From IMG/VR virus record IMGVR_UViG_3300030110_004304, positions 27,346 to 91,345 of that record: a stretch of 64,000 nt of DNA. One strand, 5' to 3'. The DNA is from a virus. Position numbers and translations under genes: made by a program. Positions 215 through 64,000 of the stretch are shown here, piece after piece. The notes beneath the pieces were generated by a model, which saw nothing but the letters and a program-made list of their open reading frames with translations, ran no database searches and had not been told where the DNA came from. The stretch's first letter is position 1; each line of letters opens with the position of its first letter.

Positions 215-3200
215 ATGGCAATGAAAAAACATAATAACACTTATGGTAAAGGCCTAAATGTTGATACCGCTTTTGATAGCATGCCTGCCAATATGTATAT
301 CGATGCTATGGATGTTAGAATAACAACTGCAGACGGAGAAAGCACAGGGGCTATAACTAATCTTCAAGGTAACGAAGAAGCTTTTAAAATAAACCAAGCC
401 GGTGCAACAGGATTAAAAGAAATAATAGGAGTAGGATTTATTAGAAATATTATAATTCTTTTCTGTGCAGATGATACTGGGACTAATGGTTGGATGTATT
501 ATGTAACTTATGACGAACAAACTAGAAAAATAACTAGTGGAGCTCAGGCTCCTCTTTTGTATGATGGTGATGGAAACCCTAACTTATTAGGTTTCAGCAA
601 AGACTGGCCAATAGAAGCCCAAGGAAGATATGAATCTGATTGCGTACAAAGAATATATTGGACAGATTATAACAACTCACTAAGAAGTTTATTAATTGAA
701 GATTTTACAAGTATTCCAGCTGGAGGATTATCATTAGACATTAGTGTAATTGATATATTTCCTGAAGTAACATACACACAGCCAATATTAACTAATGTTG
801 CTTTTGGGGGAACACTTCTTGCAGGAGAGTACCAATTTGCATATAGACTAATTACAGAAGACGGTAAACAAACTTTAATATCTCCTCCTGGAAACCTAAT
901 ACATCTAACAAGCGACTCAGAAGCTACTAGTACTAGTAGACGATATATGGGAGATCCCAAAGGTACTAATACTAATAAAAGTTTAGAAATTACAATAGAC
1001 ACAAGTGATTATGTAAATAAATTTGAAAGAATAGAATTAATATCAGTATTCTTTGAAGAATATGGGGGCACTCCTTTAGTACAATCTGTCGAAACTCAAG
1101 GAATAGGAGTATTAACTGAAATAAATTTTATTTATACAGGCCAAGAAAACACAATAGTAGATTTACCTTTAGCAGAGTTTGCTATTAAAGTATATCCTTT
1201 TAGCACCTGCAAAACAATGGTCCCTAAAGATAACTCTTTAGTTGTTGCTAATATAAAACAAACTAAGTTTGATATAAACGAATTATTAGAACCAGGAGAG
1301 ACTTTAGATTTAATGACAAAAAGATATAATAGTAGTAGTGAGTTACCTTTTACAGACGGACTAGTTAATCCGCTGGCACTTGTGCCAGGTACTCTTTACG
1401 AAGAAAAAGATGAAGTATTTAATCTTCCTTATAATCTAGATCAACATTGGGAAGGACCTTGGCACGAAGAACAACAATTTAAATATCAAGCTGATGGTTC
1501 TACTATGGGGGGACAATCTTTAGACGATGGTGTGAATCCTTCTAATCTATCCTATAAGTTTGCCCTAAGTCTTGATATAATAGATGACAGTAGTCAACCA
1601 GGTTTAGCAGAATTAACCAATACCTTTCCAAATGAGATTATTAATCTAAATGATGGTTATACGTACACTAATAAAAGTTTTCGCTCTAAAGCATCTCCCT
1701 ACAAAAGTGGATTAACCAGAGGCTATAAAAGAGGAGAAGTTTATCGTTTTGGTGTAGTATTTTATAATAAAAAAGGAGAGTCTTCTTATGTAGAATATAT
1801 TGGTGATATTAAGATGCCTGATATTTCAGAAGAAGCAGGCTATACAACAGTGACCGTTCCTGGTCCTGGAGCTAAAGACTTTTTTCCTATATCTTCAGCT
1901 GCATCTAGTGGTGCTACAGTTCCAAACGATTATACTTATGGTCATGATTTAGGATTAAAAATAGATTTAGATTTTACATCTTGTCCTAGTATATTAGACA
2001 AAATAACTTCTTTCCAAATAGTAAGATGTAAAAGAACAGATGTTGATAAAAGAAGACCCGCTTCTGGTATAATTAAATCATATCATTTTCCAGATATAGG
2101 TTCAAACCCACATTACGATCCTGATCCAGAAGATAGAGAAGGTTATGAATGGGACAGTCCCGATGGAAATATTTTACATTTATATTGGACAAAACCCACT
2201 GGCTTTATGCCATCTGAGAGTGGAAAACCTTTTGCTGGTAGTTGGTATTCTTTTAATAATAATTGGAACACATATCGAAGATTTTCAGCTGATGAAAACT
2301 ATAGTCCAATATATGGAGATTTCTTAGCTTTCTACAGTCCTGAAGTATCTTATAATTTTAACAGACAAAATCTTGAAGGAGCTGGAAAAGCACTTTTAAT
2401 TACAGGTTCATATGCTGACTACGGCCTTATTTGGCAAGGTGCATCATCTACTACTAGATATTATACTAGTACTCTACATGATGAAATTTATGGAACTAAT
2501 CAAAATAATCAAGAATTAGGATGTGACATATGGGAACAATATTTTAAAGTACGAACAACTAATAGAATAGATAGAGAAACCGTAGCTGAACAACCAGATG
2601 GTACTCTAGATACTGTATATGATGGAGGAGCAGGTTATCCAATATCATATAGAGGAATAGAATATGTAAGACAATTTAACAATGCTGGCGTATTCACAGA
2701 TTTTGAAAAGGCTCAAGAAGATGTTGAACGAGGAGATAGAATGAGTAAAATTATAAAAACGTATGGTCCTCTAGTTTCGAGCCCTCCTACTCCTACTTCT
2801 TTTTATATAAGACCTGTTTATGTTTTTGTAGGAAATGAAGGAGCTGTTGGAACAGATGATCCTGATGATTGTCCTTGTGCAGTATCTCAACCAGGTCGTA
2901 GTCTTGGTGGTAATAATTGTGGATATGGAGGAATAGGAAGAGGATCAGTCTGCTTAACAGTGAATACTACTAATATATTTACCAATCCTTATACAAGTAA
3001 TCCCGTTGTTGTTGGATCAACTGGAGTTGCTTTTCCTACAACTCCTACTAATGCTGTTGCTGGATCAGTAACCGATCCATGTTTTGGAGGTCCTAGCACA
3101 TGGACAGGTAGTTTTGGTTATGTTTGGCCAGAGTTTCCTGATCAAAATTTTATCCCCAGTCCTTCAGGCAATGATTTTTTAAACAACATTATGAATACTC

Positions 3201-5083
3201 CAGTAGTAGACGTTATGTTGTTTAAGCAAGAAATTTACGGAGGATATACTAACTCTGCTTTACAGAATAATATATTTGTTCCCTGTTCGCCTGTAGTTAC
3301 AACAGCACCTGTAATATCTAATTTAGAAGTTTACGGAGGAGATACTTTTATAGGAATGTATAGTATGCAAACAAGAAGTATGATTCTAGATGAGTATCCT
3401 TTTCCTAATGGATTTACAGCAGGTAATGATGAGTATAGATATGAAGCCAATGGAGGTTGCACGGAAGCTATTCCAGTAGAAACCCAAGTAAATTTAGACT
3501 TAGCTATGGGAGGTACTTATAAAACTAATTCACAAGCTTATTGGGTCTATTCTGGAGTTGCAGAAATAGAAGGATTCCTTAGACAAGAAGTAGGTAATTT
3601 ATCTGATTCAGGGGGTAGTGGTACTTGGGCTAAAGTAAACGATGCGTATAACAATGCTTATAATCAAGTATACTCAGTAGAGCCTGCAGATAATACTTTA
3701 GGATTTTTCATCAAGCCTGGAAGTGCAACTGGTTGTGGAATAAATGATATTAGAGCATTCTTATCGGATGTTAAGATAAACGAAGAAGAAGTAGATTCTT
3801 GGTCTATATTTAGAGCCAATAATTATTATGATATAGAAGCTCAGTTTGGGCCCATAAATAAAATAGAAAATTGGAGAGACGAAGTATTCTTTTTCCAAGA
3901 TACTGGCGTAGGAAAGTATAGTATAAACCCAAGAGCAGTAACAACAACAGAAGATGGTATACCTACGCAATTAGGTTCTGGACAAGGATTCCAACATCAC
4001 CAATATCTAAGTACTGAAAACGGATCTATACATCAGTGGGCAGTAAAAGCTACAGATACTGGAATATACTACTTCGATGCTATGAATAAAAAGATATTCA
4101 GAATAGGTGGCCAAGGAAACGAGCCTCTTTCAACTATGAAAGGTATGCACGGTTTCTTAGCTAATTTTAATGGAACAGTATTAAGAAGAAAAGAAACTGA
4201 TCAAGCTATAAGTTTAGGAGGAGATAATCCAATACAGAATAGAGGCGTTGTATTTTCTAGAGACCAACAAAACGATGAAGTACTAATGACTTTCTTAGGA
4301 ATGTATAAAGTAGTAGGATTAACTAATAACATTAACTATGAAGCAGGTACTATTGTACAAATAACTCCTGGTGGCGGAGGAACAATACAATATTGGATAG
4401 TGTATGAAAGCTACACAAGTGATCCCGCTGCTTCCTCTCCAGCACTACAAGCAGAACTATCCACTAAAGCTAGTTGGGTAGATACAGATACTAGAGAAGG
4501 TAGGTTATTATATAGTATCTTACAAAAAGGAGATGGAGGAAAAAGTACTTTAGTATTTGATGAGGTTGCCCAAGCATTCTCTTCATTCTATTCTTCTACT
4601 CCAGGACTTTATATAGAAAATAGCAATATTTTAATGAGTGCGAAAAAATCTAAAGAAGGAGATGAGTTTATAGCCTACACTCATAATAAAGGAAAGTACG
4701 GAGAGTTCTATGGAAGTATTGAAGAAAGTAGTATAAGCTTAGTTATAAATCCAGATGCTGATATAAACAAAATACTTAGATTTATAGAATTTGGTTCTCA
4801 GGTAAAAGAAATAGGAGGAGACATAGATAGGAGTACTACTATCACTGCTTTTAGAGTAGAAAACGAGTACCAGGACACTACTAAAACTGCTTACAGCCCA
4901 AGTAATATAAAAAGAAGATTTGATAAATGGAGAGTTAAATTGCCTAGAGATCAGAAAAGTTCTTCAAAAAGAGGACGTTTAAGAAGTACTCATTTTGTTT
5001 TAACTTTGTATTTTAATAACTTAGATAACAAGGAGTTAGTACTTAATAGGATAACTTCTCACTATGATGTACAGGTATACTAA
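215..5083 (+). CDS. Large tail protein, P22 gp10 / muzzle (stabilization) type
   Basis: 1,622 aa, beta-rich, no membrane segment or signal peptide. It opens with a short basic stretch and NTYGKGLNVDTAFDSMP, a start typical of the crAss tail stabilization/muzzle proteins as I recall them. It contains beta-propeller-like strands such as IYWTDYNNSL near residue 150 and, late in the protein, IENWRDEVFFFQDTGVGKY and GIYYFDAMNKKIFRI, consistent with a nozzle-type propeller. The last ~100 residues are charged. It sits directly upstream of the cargo genes, where crAss-like phages carry the tail muzzle. A second in-frame ATG two codons in is an alternative start. The family call rests on motif memory and position. 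Confidence 0.6.
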   Translation: MAMKKHNNTYGKGLNVDTAFDSMPANMYIDAMDVRITTADGESTGAITNLQGNEEAFKINQAGATGLKEIIGVGFIRNIIILFCADDTGTNGWMYYVTYDEQTRKITSGAQAPLLYDGDGNPNLLGFSKDWPIEAQGRYESDCVQRIYWTDYNNSLRSLLIEDFTSIPAGGLSLDISVIDIFPEVTYTQPILTNVAFGGTLLAGEYQFAYRLITEDGKQTLISPPGNLIHLTSDSEATSTSRRYMGDPKGTNTNKSLEITIDTSDYVNKFERIELISVFFEEYGGTPLVQSVETQGIGVLTEINFIYTGQENTIVDLPLAEFAIKVYPFSTCKTMVPKDNSLVVANIKQTKFDINELLEPGETLDLMTKRYNSSSELPFTDGLVNPLALVPGTLYEEKDEVFNLPYNLDQHWEGPWHEEQQFKYQADGSTMGGQSLDDGVNPSNLSYKFALSLDIIDDSSQPGLAELTNTFPNEIINLNDGYTYTNKSFRSKASPYKSGLTRGYKRGEVYRFGVVFYNKKGESSYVEYIGDIKMPDISEEAGYTTVTVPGPGAKDFFPISSAASSGATVPNDYTYGHDLGLKIDLDFTSCPSILDKITSFQIVRCKRTDVDKRRPASGIIKSYHFPDIGSNPHYDPDPEDREGYEWDSPDGNILHLYWTKPTGFMPSESGKPFAGSWYSFNNNWNTYRRFSADENYSPIYGDFLAFYSPEVSYNFNRQNLEGAGKALLITGSYADYGLIWQGASSTTRYYTSTLHDEIYGTNQNNQELGCDIWEQYFKVRTTNRIDRETVAEQPDGTLDTVYDGGAGYPISYRGIEYVRQFNNAGVFTDFEKAQEDVERGDRMSKIIKTYGPLVSSPPTPTSFYIRPVYVFVGNEGAVGTDDPDDCPCAVSQPGRSLGGNNCGYGGIGRGSVCLTVNTTNIFTNPYTSNPVVVGSTGVAFPTTPTNAVAGSVTDPCFGGPSTWTGSFGYVWPEFPDQNFIPSPSGNDFLNNIMNTPVVDVMLFKQEIYGGYTNSALQNNIFVPCSPVVTTAPVISNLEVYGGDTFIGMYSMQTRSMILDEYPFPNGFTAGNDEYRYEANGGCTEAIPVETQVNLDLAMGGTYKTNSQAYWVYSGVAEIEGFLRQEVGNLSDSGGSGTWAKVNDAYNNAYNQVYSVEPADNTLGFFIKPGSATGCGINDIRAFLSDVKINEEEVDSWSIFRANNYYDIEAQFGPINKIENWRDEVFFFQDTGVGKYSINPRAVTTTEDGIPTQLGSGQGFQHHQYLSTENGSIHQWAVKATDTGIYYFDAMNKKIFRIGGQGNEPLSTMKGMHGFLANFNGTVLRRKETDQAISLGGDNPIQNRGVVFSRDQQNDEVLMTFLGMYKVVGLTNNINYEAGTIVQITPGGGGTIQYWIVYESYTSDPAASSPALQAELSTKASWVDTDTREGRLLYSILQKGDGGKSTLVFDEVAQAFSSFYSSTPGLYIENSNILMSAKKSKEGDEFIAYTHNKGKYGEFYGSIEESSISLVINPDADINKILRFIEFGSQVKEIGGDIDRSTTITAFRVENEYQDTTKTAYSPSNIKRRFDKWRVKLPRDQKSSSKRGRLRSTHFVLTLYFNNLDNKELVLNRITSHYDVQVY

Positions 5084-5089
5084 TTAAAA

Positions 5090-8000
5090 ATGGATAAGAT
5101 AAGAAAATATAAACACGGCGGAGAGCCTCTTTCAAATACAAGGAGGATAGAACCTACTGTGTCTTATTTGCACTATTTAAACAACCAGAATGAATTTGCA
5201 TACGGAGGAGAAGTAAACCCGCCAGAAGGAGAAGATTTAGGAATGTCTAAAGAAGATTTTATTAGAAGGGTTAAAACTGGAAAAAGTAGTATACCTACTC
5301 AAGCACTTCAGAATCAAGTAGACTTTTTAAATCACCCTTTCTATCAACAAAATGCTAGAAATGTATGGGGAGAAGATGCTAATCAAAATATAGCAAACCA
5401 AATTGATAGGATGAAGAGTGCTAAAGTAACACTAGAATCCAATTTAGGAAATGCTGCCGGAATGTTTCATCCACCTGGTATCATGAAGGGTAATGAGAGG
5501 GGTCATATAAAACTTTTAGAAAGCACTGATCCGTCTGAAAAACTTCATACTATGGAGCACGAACTAGGACATGCGTCTGATACAGGCAAAGCTTCTCATT
5601 GGTGGGATTATAATGACCCTGCTCGTACATATATAACAGATGACTTTGATAATGTAGTACAAAGGGGTGATGAAGATCCTTTAGCTAAAATGGAACCAGA
5701 ATTTGGAAGTTATTATGATTTAACGCTAACTAATCCATACTATGACTCCCAAGATCCAGATTATTTAAAAGTACCAACAGAATTTAGAACAAGATTAAAC
5801 CATGTTAAAAAATTAATGGCTAATGATAATTTTAACTGGAACGAAAAATCTGCTGAAGAAATTGCTAATTACATGCAAGAAAAAAAATTAGATAATAATA
5901 TAAGCGACGCAGCAAGAAGCGAGTTACAACAGTTTTCACAATACAATCGAGAAGATGTAGATCAGTATCTGGACTATGGCGATGTTTACAGAGATTTTTT
6001 AAGTGAGGAAAATAGAAAAGGTAAAGAAGGAAAAGACTTTAGAAAACTTTGGAGACAAGGTGTTAGAACACCAGAAGAATTTATAAATGCTCACCCGTGG
6101 TATAAAAAAATGTTTCACAAAGAAGAAATAGAACAAATACTAGAAGATAAAGATGGAGATGGTAAAGCTGATTTCGAAATTTTAGATGATTATAAAGGTA
6201 GGCAACAAAACAGAGCGTTTTTAGACAAGGTATTTAAAGAACTTGCTCAAGAAAAGAATATACCAGATAATAGTTACAGAGTAGCTAGAAACGGAGGAAA
6301 GCCTTATCCAGGACCTCCTTATTATCCTTATCACAGTGCAAATCTTAAAGTAGATAAAAGCTACGATAAGAATCATGTACAACCTAGTGTATTTCCTAAT
6401 GGTGGAGAACTAGTTACAATAGGAGATAAGACATATAATACGTCTAGTAAAGAATATAGAAAGTTAGTAGAATCTGGTAAAGTTAAACCGTACACTACAG
6501 ATACTAAATCAGGAATAGGGGCATTTGATTATGGAAACCTTCCAGATTTTGAAGTAACAGCACCTACGCAAGAAGCTGTAGATATGGCTAAAAGTGCTTT
6601 TAATAGAAGTAAACAAGGGCAAGCTAAACAGCAAAACACACAAAATTTTCTAAATAATAACAGATATCGTTATCCTGAAAGTGGTGCTACAAAAGGGATA
6701 GTAGAATCAATGGTAGAAGGAGTTATAGATAATCCTAATAACTTAAGTTATTATCCAGGTGCAGGAGAACTTTATGATGCAGCACATTTAGGATATAGTT
6801 TAAGACAAGGAAATTATGGAGACGCTGCTTTTGATGCAGCTGCATTTACAATTCCTTTTGTAGGAGGAGCCGCAATTAAAAAGTTTGTAAAGCCTTATTT
6901 AAAAAATGCATATAAATACAATCCTTTTGCAACAAATTTAGAATCAAAAATTGCTAAAGAAAATTTATTAGCTCGTCAAATATATGGAGATGAAGCATAC
7001 GAAAACTTTTTAAAACATGGACCAGCAACTGAGTACGGTAAAAATGTACCTAGACATAAACAAATACATGATTGGCTAAATGCTGATGTAGAAGATGTTT
7101 CGATTATAAGCAAGGGGGGAAAGAATGAAGGTAAACTTACAGTCGCTTCTACTATGACAGAAGATAGAAATTTTAAATATCCTTATTTTCAAAAAGGTAA
7201 CTTATTCTTTGGTCCCAATGAAAGAGCATTATATAATGCTGATATGGGTAAAGGTAGAGTAATAATTCCTAAAGATGTCAATGCTAAAAGTTTTTATCCA
7301 GCAGGTGAAACAAGTTTTATCAGAAATGTTGATACTGCTCCAGAATCTGCTGTTAAAAGGTATTCAGGAGAAAAACATATATTATCACCTTTTGACAAAA
7401 ATGCTTTTAATCCTAAAGCTTTTGATGTTTACGAAGAAACTCCTCATTGGTTGATGGGCAATAGAAAAATACAAAGACATGGTGGTCCTACAGATCCTGA
7501 TAAAGAGTATTTAAAAAATTGGAATAAAGCCAGACTAAAAACAGGTAGATTTAATGACCAACTAGGATCCGGAAGAATAGAAGGGCTTAATCAAAATATT
7601 GATGAGGTCGAAAGAGTTTCGAGAGCAGAGATGTCAAAATTAATAGGAGAAAATCCAAATAGTAGAGGAATGTATTATAGAGACCCTGAAAAAGGTATGC
7701 ATACATACTTTTCGGAACCTACTTTTTTACAAGAACTTACTAATTATTTTGGAGGAATGCCCCAAACAAATCTTCACGAATTAACACATGCTATGACAAA
7801 AGCAAGTAGTCATATTCCTGGAGAAGAATCTACTGGCCAAATAAAAGCAATACAAAATATACCTTTAGGAACAGGAGAATACTATGGTTCAAAATATAGT
7901 AAGATGTCGCCGGAAGGTAAATATGACGTAGGGCCTTATGGATATGATGGAGATGCTGAAGAAATTTTAGCACAACTTATGGAATATCGTAAGAATTTTA

Positions 8001-61864: not shown

Positions 61865-62062
61865 TTAAACTGTTTCAGGATTATAGTAAATCTTAGTCAA
61901 TTCAATACGATAAACATAAAAAGGAATATGTATAATAAATTCATGTTTAGATTTCTCTCCATTTCGATATGTAAACGATTCATAGCCAAAAGACAAACCA
62001 AAGGCTTTAATCTTTTCACCATAAGAGTTCCATTGTCTTTTAATACAAGTTAATTTTTTCAT
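61865..62062 (-). CDS. 65-aa hypothetical basic protein
   Basis: 65 aa, beta-rich and basic (KLTCIKRQWNSYGEKI, then SFTYRNGEKSKHEFIIHIPFYVYRIEL). Pairs with the 59-aa membrane gene. It begins ~35 bp after the terminator of the non-coding region. Not recognised. Confidence 0.6.
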   Translation of the reverse strand: MKKLTCIKRQWNSYGEKIKAFGLSFGYESFTYRNGEKSKHEFIIHIPFYVYRIELTKIYYNPETV

Positions 62063-62132: not shown

Positions 62133-62380
62133 CATTACTGTTTTTACTCTTTTTATACAGGTCAGAGTCTTAGAACCTAGGATATCTTTAGTGTATCATT
62201 GTACTGTCTGGTAATTAGAAGGTCCAGACTACCTTTAAAGAGTTTGTATAAGAAGTAAGAGTGCAGACTCCAGGATTTTACCCACTATTTTCGCTGGTGG
62301 TTACCCTACCAATGTCTTAAGCTATTGATGCTGCCGTTTGTTTTCGTTAGAGTTAATTTATTATGACTCTTACTTCTTTG

Positions 62381-62437
62381 CCCATAACTGAGACTTCTCT
62401 CATAATGTTATGGGACTAGTATTTTTTGTAAGTCTCA
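62381..62437 (-). other. Pseudoknot or two-state switch element within the RNA
   Basis: On the - strand TGAGACTT (62437-62430) can pair with AAGTCTCA (62396-62389), while CCCATAAC (62414-62407) pairs with GTTATGGG (62388-62381). The two 8-bp helices cross, giving a pseudoknot with 15-nt and 10-nt loops and no gap between the 3' strands. Alternatively TGAGA/TCTCA folds locally inside the second helix, closing on GAAG, and the two forms exclude each other. Confidence 0.5.
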
Positions 62438-62724
62438 CCGATTTCCTTACACACTTTCACTAATAATAGCTCGTACCACACAGGTGTGGGAAAGTTAATT
62501 TGCATTGTAAGTAACAACTTTTACTTGGTCATGTATGCCACCATTAGTGATTGTTGATCACGTCTATCATCTTTAATATTTGTTGAAGCGAGGTGCCAGG
62601 CAAAGACCTGCAGGATTTTGGGCATCCAGCTCTTTCACAAGCTGTCATCCCCCACTTCAATTCGATAAGACACAAATGGGACTATAGTGATCAATTATAG
62701 AGGCATTCGTGTCCTTTAATTTGT

Positions 62725-62826
62725 TACTAGTGATGAGATTCGAACTCATACTCGTGGACTTCTGTACGTAACCACGCTCCGCGTTGCTGAGCACCATTAC
62801 CTAGGTAGTACTCAGTTGCCACTAGT
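62725..62826 (-). ncRNA. tRNA-like element with canonical acceptor and T-arm, abnormal middle
   Basis: A 7-bp acceptor ACTAGTG/CACTAGT with discriminator A encloses, in the correct place, a 5-bp T-stem ATGAG/CTCAT with the canonical 7-nt loop TTCGAAT. The middle is 70 nt instead of about 45-55. It folds into a 10-bp hairpin CTGAGTACTA/TGGTGCTCAG (two U-G pairs on this strand only), a mini-hairpin ACGC/GCGT and CGTGG/CCACG with a 14-nt loop, so there is no valid anticodon loop. CCA is not encoded. It is a tRNA mimic or degenerate tRNA rather than a decoding tRNA. Strand is clear from the T-loop. Confidence 0.6.
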
Positions 62827-63169
62827 TAATTATATCAATTAGCCAAGCTTGCCCTCTTGTTGCGTTGTTTAACGACCAGATAGCTACCAGGTCCGGCAAC
62901 GTTGCCAGACACTTTTTCCTGAACTTAGATGAAATGGAGACTCATTGCACCACAATCATCCAGTGGTATGTACTTCAGTGTGCTGAACAACTTACTTGGC
63001 TAATAATTACTTATATCTGCAAGGTTCTAATCCTTGAAATGTATCCCGGTGTAGGATTTTCAATTGGTGCTATACCATACCTTTTCCTTAAGGGCTGAAT
63101 TTTAATCTAATGTCCAGTGTTAGTGGATAATAGAACCGTGTCAAAGGGTAACAATGCTATTGCACAGAT

Positions 63170-63384
63170 AATAAGTTTAAGCAGAGCAAACTCGTCAGTT
63201 TAATACTCTCAGAGGTTTAGTTAGCTAAACATGTAGTATGAACCCTACTTAGATAATAAGTTTGCAGGTCACATGGAGCTCAAGAGTGGTCTTAACACGC
63301 ATTACGAGGAGCTACCTCAACTTGAATATTTATCAGAATCCTGTCTTTATAATTTCTGTTGGACCCCATGTGATTAATAAGTTT
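63170..63384 (-). promoter_or_regulatory. Three copies of the AAACTTATT motif
   Basis: The core AAACTTATT (reads AATAAGTTT on +) occurs at 63376-63384, 63255-63263 and 63170-63178, in two copies as TTAAACTTATTA and in one as GCAAACTTATTA. Helices start within a few bases after the first and third copies. The same core lies at 59025-59033 ahead of the 184-aa gene. Repetition in one orientation, in front of structured non-coding pieces, suits a promoter of an unusual polymerase, an RNA-processing site or a protein-binding site. Function is not shown. Confidence 0.45.
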
Positions 63385-63400
63385 AAGCTATAAATATAAT

Positions 63401-63442
63401 AAAAAGGAACTAATCAGCTTGTACTCCCACAAGCTAATTAGT
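63401..63442 (-). terminator. Strong intrinsic terminator after the 94-aa gene
   Basis: On the - strand a 14-bp stem (63429-63442 with 63409-63422; ACTAATTAGCTTGT with ACAAGCTGATTAGT, one U-G pair on this strand only), 6-nt loop, then TCCTTTTT. It separates the small gene at 63626-63910 from the structured RNA, so the RNA needs a promoter between about 63400 and 63373 or regulated read-through. Confidence 0.88.
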
Positions 63443-63625
63443 GTTGTTAAGGCCTAGAAAAGGCTTAAGCGTTTTCGTTAACTAACCACGAGATAGTGGT
63501 GATAACTCCAAAATGATTGATGTATCTTTTCATTTCTTCACAGTATTAAAAGGTTATTGCAATAAATTCTACTGTATTGCGTCAGTATGCATACGAAAGC
63601 GTTACCTCCAAGAGGAGTTCTAGCA
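63443..63625 (-). other. Structured 3' region of the 94-aa gene transcript
   Basis: No gene. It holds TTAA/GCCT pairs forming a hairpin at 63447-63468, ACCAC/GTGGT around 63484-63500, and ACAGTA/TACTGT enclosing the palindrome TTATTGCAATAA at about 63541-63575. These continue the style of the neighbouring structured RNA but lie before its terminator, so they may be the 3' UTR of the small gene. Confidence 0.4.
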
Positions 63626-63637: not shown

Positions 63638-63910
63638 TGCTTGGAAGAACCCGTCCTCATCGGCATCACCGATGAACTTAACCTGACCAGTTACATCCTG
63701 ACCCGCGGTTAGCTGAGCTTCAGCATCAGCAAGGCTCACGCCTCTGTTAAGAGACATACCTCCAGTAAAGGTCTGGTCTTTCAAACCACCGAACGCAGTG
63801 GTAACTTGTTGGATACACACCCAAACTCTAGGCCCCTTAGTGCCTGTTGGCTGATCGTTCTCATAGATTTCAGACTCATACTCTGTTAAAGATTTAATTA
63901 AATATTTCAT
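63626..63910 (-). CDS. Small soluble protein with GC-rich, optimised-looking codons
   Basis: 94 aa. MKYLIKSLTEYESEIYENDQ, then VWVCIQQVTTAFGGL, SLNRGVSLADAEAQL and GQVKFIGDADEDGFF look like a small beta-rich domain; no known motif. Codon use differs sharply from the AT-rich neighbours: GGT, ACC, CAG, CTT/CTC, GTC and GCG are frequent. The usual reasons are very high expression or recent transfer. A hairpin covers the stop and a strong terminator follows 180 bp later, so it may be a monocistronic, abundant early protein. Confidence 0.7.
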   Translation of the reverse strand: MKYLIKSLTEYESEIYENDQPTGTKGPRVWVCIQQVTTAFGGLKDQTFTGGMSLNRGVSLADAEAQLTAGQDVTGQVKFIGDADEDGFFQAVLA

Positions 63911-63952
63911 AATAATAGGATTTACACGGGGACGACGTTGCCCACGCAGAAT

Positions 63953-64000
63953 TTAGGAAGGGTCGATGATCTTGGTACTCTCAGCGTGTGTATTCTCTTT
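63953..64000 (-). CDS. C-terminal end of a further leftward gene (partial)
   Basis: The frame from the window end reads 15 residues, KENTHAESTKIIDPS, to a TAA at 63955-63953. Codons (ACC, AAG, ATC, GAC) match the GC-rich style of the next gene, 42 bp away. Too short for any function. Confidence 0.4.
   Translation of the reverse strand, partial: KENTHAESTKIIDPS

Follow-up and report, generated by a model that had tools for sequence, protein, structure and literature searches.

Our results suggest that the non-coding interval near the head of the minus-strand replication arm of this crAss-like phage genome holds small structured RNA modules that form an exchangeable array, which is probably transcribed early and would act on host factors. 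We hold this reading as a whole with moderate confidence. The modular build of the array and the exchange of its modules among relatives are well supported by sequence comparison, and covariation is strong in M1, a module that sister arrays carry and the window lacks. We infer the transcription, processing and function of the array from its position, turnover and architecture.

The window, that is, the whole stretch of 64 kb analysed here, is the right-hand part of a virus record of 91,345 bases in all. The two ends of the record overlap exactly over 99 nt (window 63902-64000 equals the record start), and hence the genome is probably complete, with a size of ~91.2 kb when the overlap is counted once. 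The crAss-like assignment given in the preliminary description is upheld by the large terminase, portal and major head families, and by a major capsid protein with 29% identity to that of Bacteroides phage PhiCrAssBcn in an alignment over 99% of its length. The array lies close to where the two transcription arms of this genome meet. DNA polymerase I, helicases, primase and rII-like genes form the content of the minus-strand arm. A 94-aa gene of no family precedes the array (63910-63626, minus strand), and a 65-aa gene is the next gene after it (at 62062, minus strand). Downstream of the array lies a DUF1287 protein (61562-60984, minus strand; Pfam PF06940, 199 bits). Short genes of about 77-100 aa precede other arrays too, and DUF1287 relatives are also found downstream of the arrays in L004, L002/L022 and L003/L029.

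The interval had been described as non-coding, and its reading frames agree with this. The longest minus-strand frame has 46 aa under table 11, and recoding extends it to only 80 aa (TAG read as Q) or 74 aa (TGA read as W), none of them a plausible protein. A coding remnant, which the preliminary description had foreseen as an objection, was rejected because there is no long open frame, whether standard, TAG- or TGA-recoded. The bounds of the array are better set at 63393, at the leader, to 62097. The separated complementary arms named earlier are real: they include 13 bp at 62378/62250, 14 bp including G-U pairing at 62550/62457, and 11 bp each at 63373/63269, 63004/62838 and 62660/62583. In line with the order claimed for them, the module stems, A to L, tile head to tail without overlap from 63373 to 62197 on the minus strand. 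The additional claim that chance could not give so many arms was too strong for arms of 7 bp. We observed 14 exact arms of at least 7 bp versus 12.0 ± 3.3 expected, and 63 of 200 dinucleotide shuffles reached 14; the count of long arms was therefore rejected as proof of structure. Only the longest arms are unusual, with the 13-bp pair seen in 0 of 200 shuffles and two pairs of at least 10 bp in 2 of 200. Folding energy supports a structured minus strand (z -3.1, versus -0.7 on the plus strand). When folded in 200-nt windows, most of the interval does not stand out, and adjacent coding DNA scores lower. Since this intrinsic evidence is modest by itself, the comparative evidence carries the case. 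RNA on the minus strand is indicated by three lines of evidence together: the one-sided folding energy, the conservation of G-U pairs and the compensatory changes.

The array opens with a conserved 17-nt leader TTATAGCTTAAACTTAT (63377-63393, minus strand), directly before the first module. The leader is identical in seven independent contigs (L004, L020, L021, L022, L026, L028 and L029) and has one mismatch in an eighth, L045; it is the sole sequence that all eight arrays compared have in common. The scan of the region recognised no promoter at this leader. A terminator had been proposed at each end of the interval. The upstream one is strong: an intrinsic terminator of the preceding unit, with a 15-pair stem followed by TCCTTTTT, occupies 63401-63441 on the minus strand (63442-63409 in the terminator scan). 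In contrast, the downstream one at 62133-62097 was not called by the scan. At this position a 9-bp hairpin GGACTGTTT/AAACAGTCC is followed by AAATTTTT, with the T's a few bases further on, and it may mark the end of the array. Some of the window modules are separated by AACTTATTA linkers. In nine arrays we counted 19 sense and 0 antisense copies of the linker AACTTATT, against a shuffle mean of 0.8. Linker-like sites lie near 22% of the starts of shared blocks versus 7% of random positions, a roughly three-fold enrichment. The window has only three exact linkers, and most borders of shared blocks are without one.

All modules lie on the minus strand. Module A (63269-63373) has an 11-bp closing stem TCACATGGGGT/GCTCCATGTGA, and L004 has unrelated sequence in its place. 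The linker AAACTTATTATC and module B, with stem TAAGTAGGGT/GCTCTGCTTA, follow at 63175-63263 (module 63251-63175), and another linker and module C at 63014-63180 (module 63170-63014). Module C has a tRNA-like end, where the stem ATCTG/CAGAT is abutted by a T-arm-like hairpin CAAGG ATTAGAA CCTTG (63036-63020). Module D (62838-63004) is closed by ATTAGCCAAGT/GCTTGGCTAAT, and a 26-nt piece of it (62874-62849) also occurs in L021. Module E (62722-62826) confirms the presence of the tRNA-like element reported inside the interval: its acceptor-type stem ACTAGTG/CACTAGT abuts a T-arm ATGAG TTCGAAT CTCAT (62749-62733). No 7-nt anticodon loop was identified in module E, and its Rfam tRNA score was 17.7 bits versus a cut-off of 29. 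Module F (62667-62715) has a 12-bp stem AGGACACGAATG/CATTTGTGTCTT with an inner hairpin, module G (62583-62660) an 11-bp closing stem TTGAAGTGGGG/CCTCGCTTCAA, and module H (62457-62550) a 14-bp closing stem TCACTAATGGTGGC/GCTATTATTAGTGA. Module I (62427-62451) is a small hairpin TGTAAG/CTTACA, and module J (62381-62414) a hairpin with the apical stem-loop TGAGA-GAAG-TCTCA. Module K (62250-62378) is closed by 13 bp, AAGAAGTAAGAGT/ACTCTTACTTCTT, and module L (62143-62244) has the stem GTCTGG/CCAGAC and a conserved CAATGATACACTANAGATAT. In the contigs compared, no homologue was found of modules A, B, E, H and I, and hence their structures come from single-sequence folding.

Comparison with L004, obtained by a scan with the DUF1287 neighbour, illustrates how modules are replaced. 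The proteins of both flanking genes are 80-82% identical between L004 and the window, and the non-coding intervals are of similar length. The match before the array (87%) runs up to the leader and ends there, and the L004 sequence departs from the window right after it. In this syntenic interval only the leader, module C (L004 1833-1986, 87% identical; shared block 63179-63015), module F (L004 2064-2124, 92% identical; shared block 62718-62658) and the end are kept. The remainder is replaced, including the modules that flank module C. Searching with the leader 17-mer gave further arrays in L020, L021, L026 and L028 and in the records of L002 (L022) and L003 (L029), and two module patterns used as queries gave L030-L038 and L045. 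L011 is a near-duplicate of L022, and L012 a duplicate of L029; L010 and several 17-mer leader matches, for instance L013, were rejected as chance. When the 94-aa and 65-aa neighbours served as protein anchors for scans, L004 was the only contig obtained. A blastn search of 50,697 annotated phage records with the window interval, the L028 and L022 arrays and single modules gave no match.

The arrays compared share the leader but have different module sets behind it, and an all-against-all comparison found blocks of about 50-300 nt common to arrays in differing orders. For instance, module L (block 62244-62143) recurs in three other arrays, at 86% identity in L028 (6208-6309) and L045 (1017-1120) and at 94% in L021 over the first 53 nt. 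Module G has kept its 3' half in L028 (94%; block 62629-62578) together with its stem (TTGAAGTGAGG/CCTCACTTCAA), while the interior is different. Modules J and K match L038 at 74% identity (block 62429-62304), where the homologue of K lies at about 3375-3533. A 110-nt module with the closing stem AGAGGAAC/GTTCCTCT stands in different contexts in L004, L021, L022 and L036. Between L028 and L045, a 290-nt run of consecutive modules is 94% identical, and a separate block of 89 nt is 100% identical. The arrays of L021, L022, L026 and L028 also contain scattered tiny ORFs of about 35 aa, and hence the exchange may concern more than RNA.

Covariation in relatives, proposed earlier as a check of the structure, was found in M1 (13 distinct sequences, a widespread module of sister arrays that is absent from the window), whereas the window modules gave pairwise comparisons of mixed outcome. 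The stems of M1 are an invariant closing GCUGU/ACAGC, GUAGUA/UACUGC and a 3' hairpin that alternates between AAGCA/UGCUU, GAACA/UGUUC and GAAUA/UAUUC. The pair cells of M1 are paired in 95-97% of cases, versus 17-57% in a slid control. Six pairs changed on both sides, and the covariation score was matched by 0 of 500 shuffles. Related sequences may beat the shuffles of this tool even without structure. Such an artefact of kinship is unlikely for M1: the slid control speaks against it, as does the number of pairs with double changes, which only 4-6 of 500 shuffles reach. M1 contains an invariant U-G pair, and the G-U pairs are consistent with the module strand. The M1 model had no match in crAss001, phi14:2, PhiCrAssBcn2 and DAC15, and five M1 matches in a scan of genome contigs were rejected, all being chance on inspection of their sequence. 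In L031, L033, L034 and L037 another repeated stretch, ATCTAACAGAGTAAACTG, adjoins M1, and the AACTTATTA leader is absent.

Of the window modules, J and K were compared pairwise with L038, using stems chosen by hand; four pairs had double compensatory changes and one pair was broken. The apical stem of J has three double changes and none broken (its L038 counterpart is TTGAA-GAAG-TTCAA), while in K the closing stem has one double change and an inner stem one broken pair. The pairwise comparisons of G and F showed two one-sided changes in the former, and one one-sided change and one broken pair in the latter. In the tRNA-like T module found elsewhere, with three sequences, all cells are paired and two of the 23 pairs show double changes, which 66 of 500 shuffles equal. 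The scores of the T module and M5, with three sequences each, were reached in 11-13% of shuffles; among the multi-sequence tests, only that of M1 had statistical power.

The interval had originally been regarded as a candidate for a single large RNA of long-range helices. This part was not supported, as the arms close separate modules that are independently kept, lost, replaced and reordered in relatives. The accompanying likeness to GOLLD was apt, in that the related array of L045 contains a genuine full-length GOLLD (RF02032) at 1629-2038, with 171.1 bits versus a gathering score of 150. The same array holds window module L. GOLLD was found in no other record searched, the window record included. 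The Rfam scan suggested in the preliminary description gave no gathering-score match anywhere in the window (ROOL, OLE and HEARO included), and a search to E 5 gave nothing credible in the interval.

In vitro, GOLLD assembles into a 14-mer cage; it often lies near tRNAs, combines variable 5' with conserved 3' domains, and has no known function (PMC12286853). ROOL is abundant and occurs in phages and prophages, and has no function assigned (PMC12286853). Phage ICP1, which lacks tRNAs, has an ORF-less gap of ~1 kb with an abundant non-coding RNA of about 800 nt, which its authors likened to GOLLD and ROOL (PMC7567579). By description, the window array resembles this ICP1 RNA as an ORF-less phage gap of ~1 kb in a genome without tRNAs. 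It resembles GOLLD as a large phage-borne structured non-coding RNA, and ROOL and OLE in being long, ornate and non-coding. However, the window contains a chain of small modules, whereas GOLLD is one conserved domain of about 400 nt, and in contrast to ROOL and OLE the window is without Rfam match and the arrays share no common core. The stable RNAs C and D of phage T4 are short non-tRNA RNAs beside the phage tRNAs, with a function that is unknown. Compared by description, they resemble our modules in being short and not tRNAs, and we know of no shuffled array that involves them. Because the defining features that we tested were not found, the array would work like GOLLD and ROOL or like tRNA arrays without being a member of these groups.

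An alternative explanation might be one ornate RNA of ~1.25 kb, a GOLLD- or ROOL-like cage or scaffold in which the modules are uncut, exchangeable peripheral domains. The length, the order of the stems and the phage non-coding gap recall these RNAs, the sister array L045 carries GOLLD, and GOLLD itself has variable 5' and conserved 3' domains in a 14-mer cage (PMC12286853). We consider this explanation unlikely, because no conserved core domain was found in all arrays, with only the leader common to them, and the window has no Rfam match. Linkers and the replacement of whole modules suit separable units better.

The exchangeable array that we favour might work as follows. About 12 autonomous folds stand head to tail behind the conserved leader, with AU-rich AACUUAUUA linkers between some of them, where the minus-strand arm (replication, early-type) begins. 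Transcription would be early and would set out from the leader. Its single-stranded linkers could be cut by an RNase E-type host RNase or a phage nuclease, after which the modules would persist as separate stable RNAs, and the tRNA-like modules may protect or define RNA ends. The modules may then bind or decoy host factors of defence, RNA decay or translation. Binding of host factors would account for a repertoire that turns over behind a constant leader and within a constant architecture. Host interaction is likewise suggested by the fast turnover, the tiny ORFs and the location where the replication arm starts.

A less probable explanation is a cis-acting leader, where the interval is the 5' part of an early operon transcript and serves attenuation or RNA stability, together with a micro-ORF and the terminator. 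The position at the head of the minus-strand arm and the conserved leader agree with this, and so does the micro-ORF MKRYINHFGVITTISWLVNENA (63465-63533, minus strand), which is followed by the terminator. Yet 1.3 kb of exchangeable modules goes far beyond the needs of attenuation, and the recognised terminator stands before the leader, not after it. Frames of 21-25 aa like MKRYINHFGVITTISWLVNENA stand before the leader in L022, L029 and L028 and inside the L021 array, and they could be leader peptides. The micro-ORF family, which includes MKRYINHFGVITTISWLVNENA and MDYIIHNGVLTVRAWVVNPNA, has members at about 692-618 of L021 (minus strand) and at 4980-5057 of L028. A hairpin with the conserved loop ATCTTGGCAACAGAAT occurs at about 605-565 of L021 (minus strand), at about 5090-5122 of L028, and in L026 and L020. 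All five hand-picked pairs of its stem differ, with CGTCA/TGACG versus GACTC/GAGTC.

It is very improbable that the interval is a degenerate tRNA cluster, in which former tRNA genes have decayed to remnants. T-arms with acceptor-type stems occur in modules C and E and also in L004, L022, L028 and L029, and in crAss001 a large cluster of tRNAs lies upstream of the large terminase gene, while ARAGORN found no tRNA gene in the window and the rest of its record. The tRNA array of crAss001 (1683-5807) resembles our array as a tandem series of small structured RNA genes and tiny ORFs in a crAss-like phage. However, the modules are not tRNAs: ARAGORN accepted none, the scores against the Rfam tRNA model (RF00005) are below the cut-off, no 7-nt anticodon loop was identified in those with a T-arm and acceptor-type stem, and most modules have no tRNA feature. 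Decay is further disfavoured by the stems of the T module, which stay paired with two double changes, although three sequences are weak evidence alone. A tRNA-looking element with a TTCGAAT loop and an inserted hairpin lies at 5455-5575 of L028 and was not accepted by ARAGORN. A DNA-level element acting through cruciforms, such as an origin, packaging or recombination site, would suit the long inverted repeats near the junction of the transcription arms, but is the least credible explanation, as the G-U pairs and the one-strand energy bias indicate RNA and the modules turn over freely among relatives.

We return to the exchangeable array of RNA modules. GOLLD and ROOL belong to the largest bacterial RNAs for which no function is known. 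Our comparison places GOLLD, as a single element of a locus, amid many small, unnamed and partly covarying folds that are swapped like cassettes. More tentatively, the arrays may represent an undescribed locus of crAss-like phages, a combinatorial array of small structured RNA cassettes that phages exchange behind a fixed leader and in which GOLLD is one cassette, serving as an RNA arsenal against host defence or for host takeover. In open-licence papers on GOLLD and ROOL, on non-coding RNA of crAss-like phages, and on stable RNAs and decoys of phages, we found no description of such arrays, which is weak evidence of absence. The array context makes function testable module by module. The arrays also supply several candidate new RNA families, of which M1 is the best supported. 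Finally, the tiny ORFs of ~35 aa swap between arrays like the RNA modules, as at 7697-7806 of L026 and 5884-5992 of L028, and in L021 and L022.
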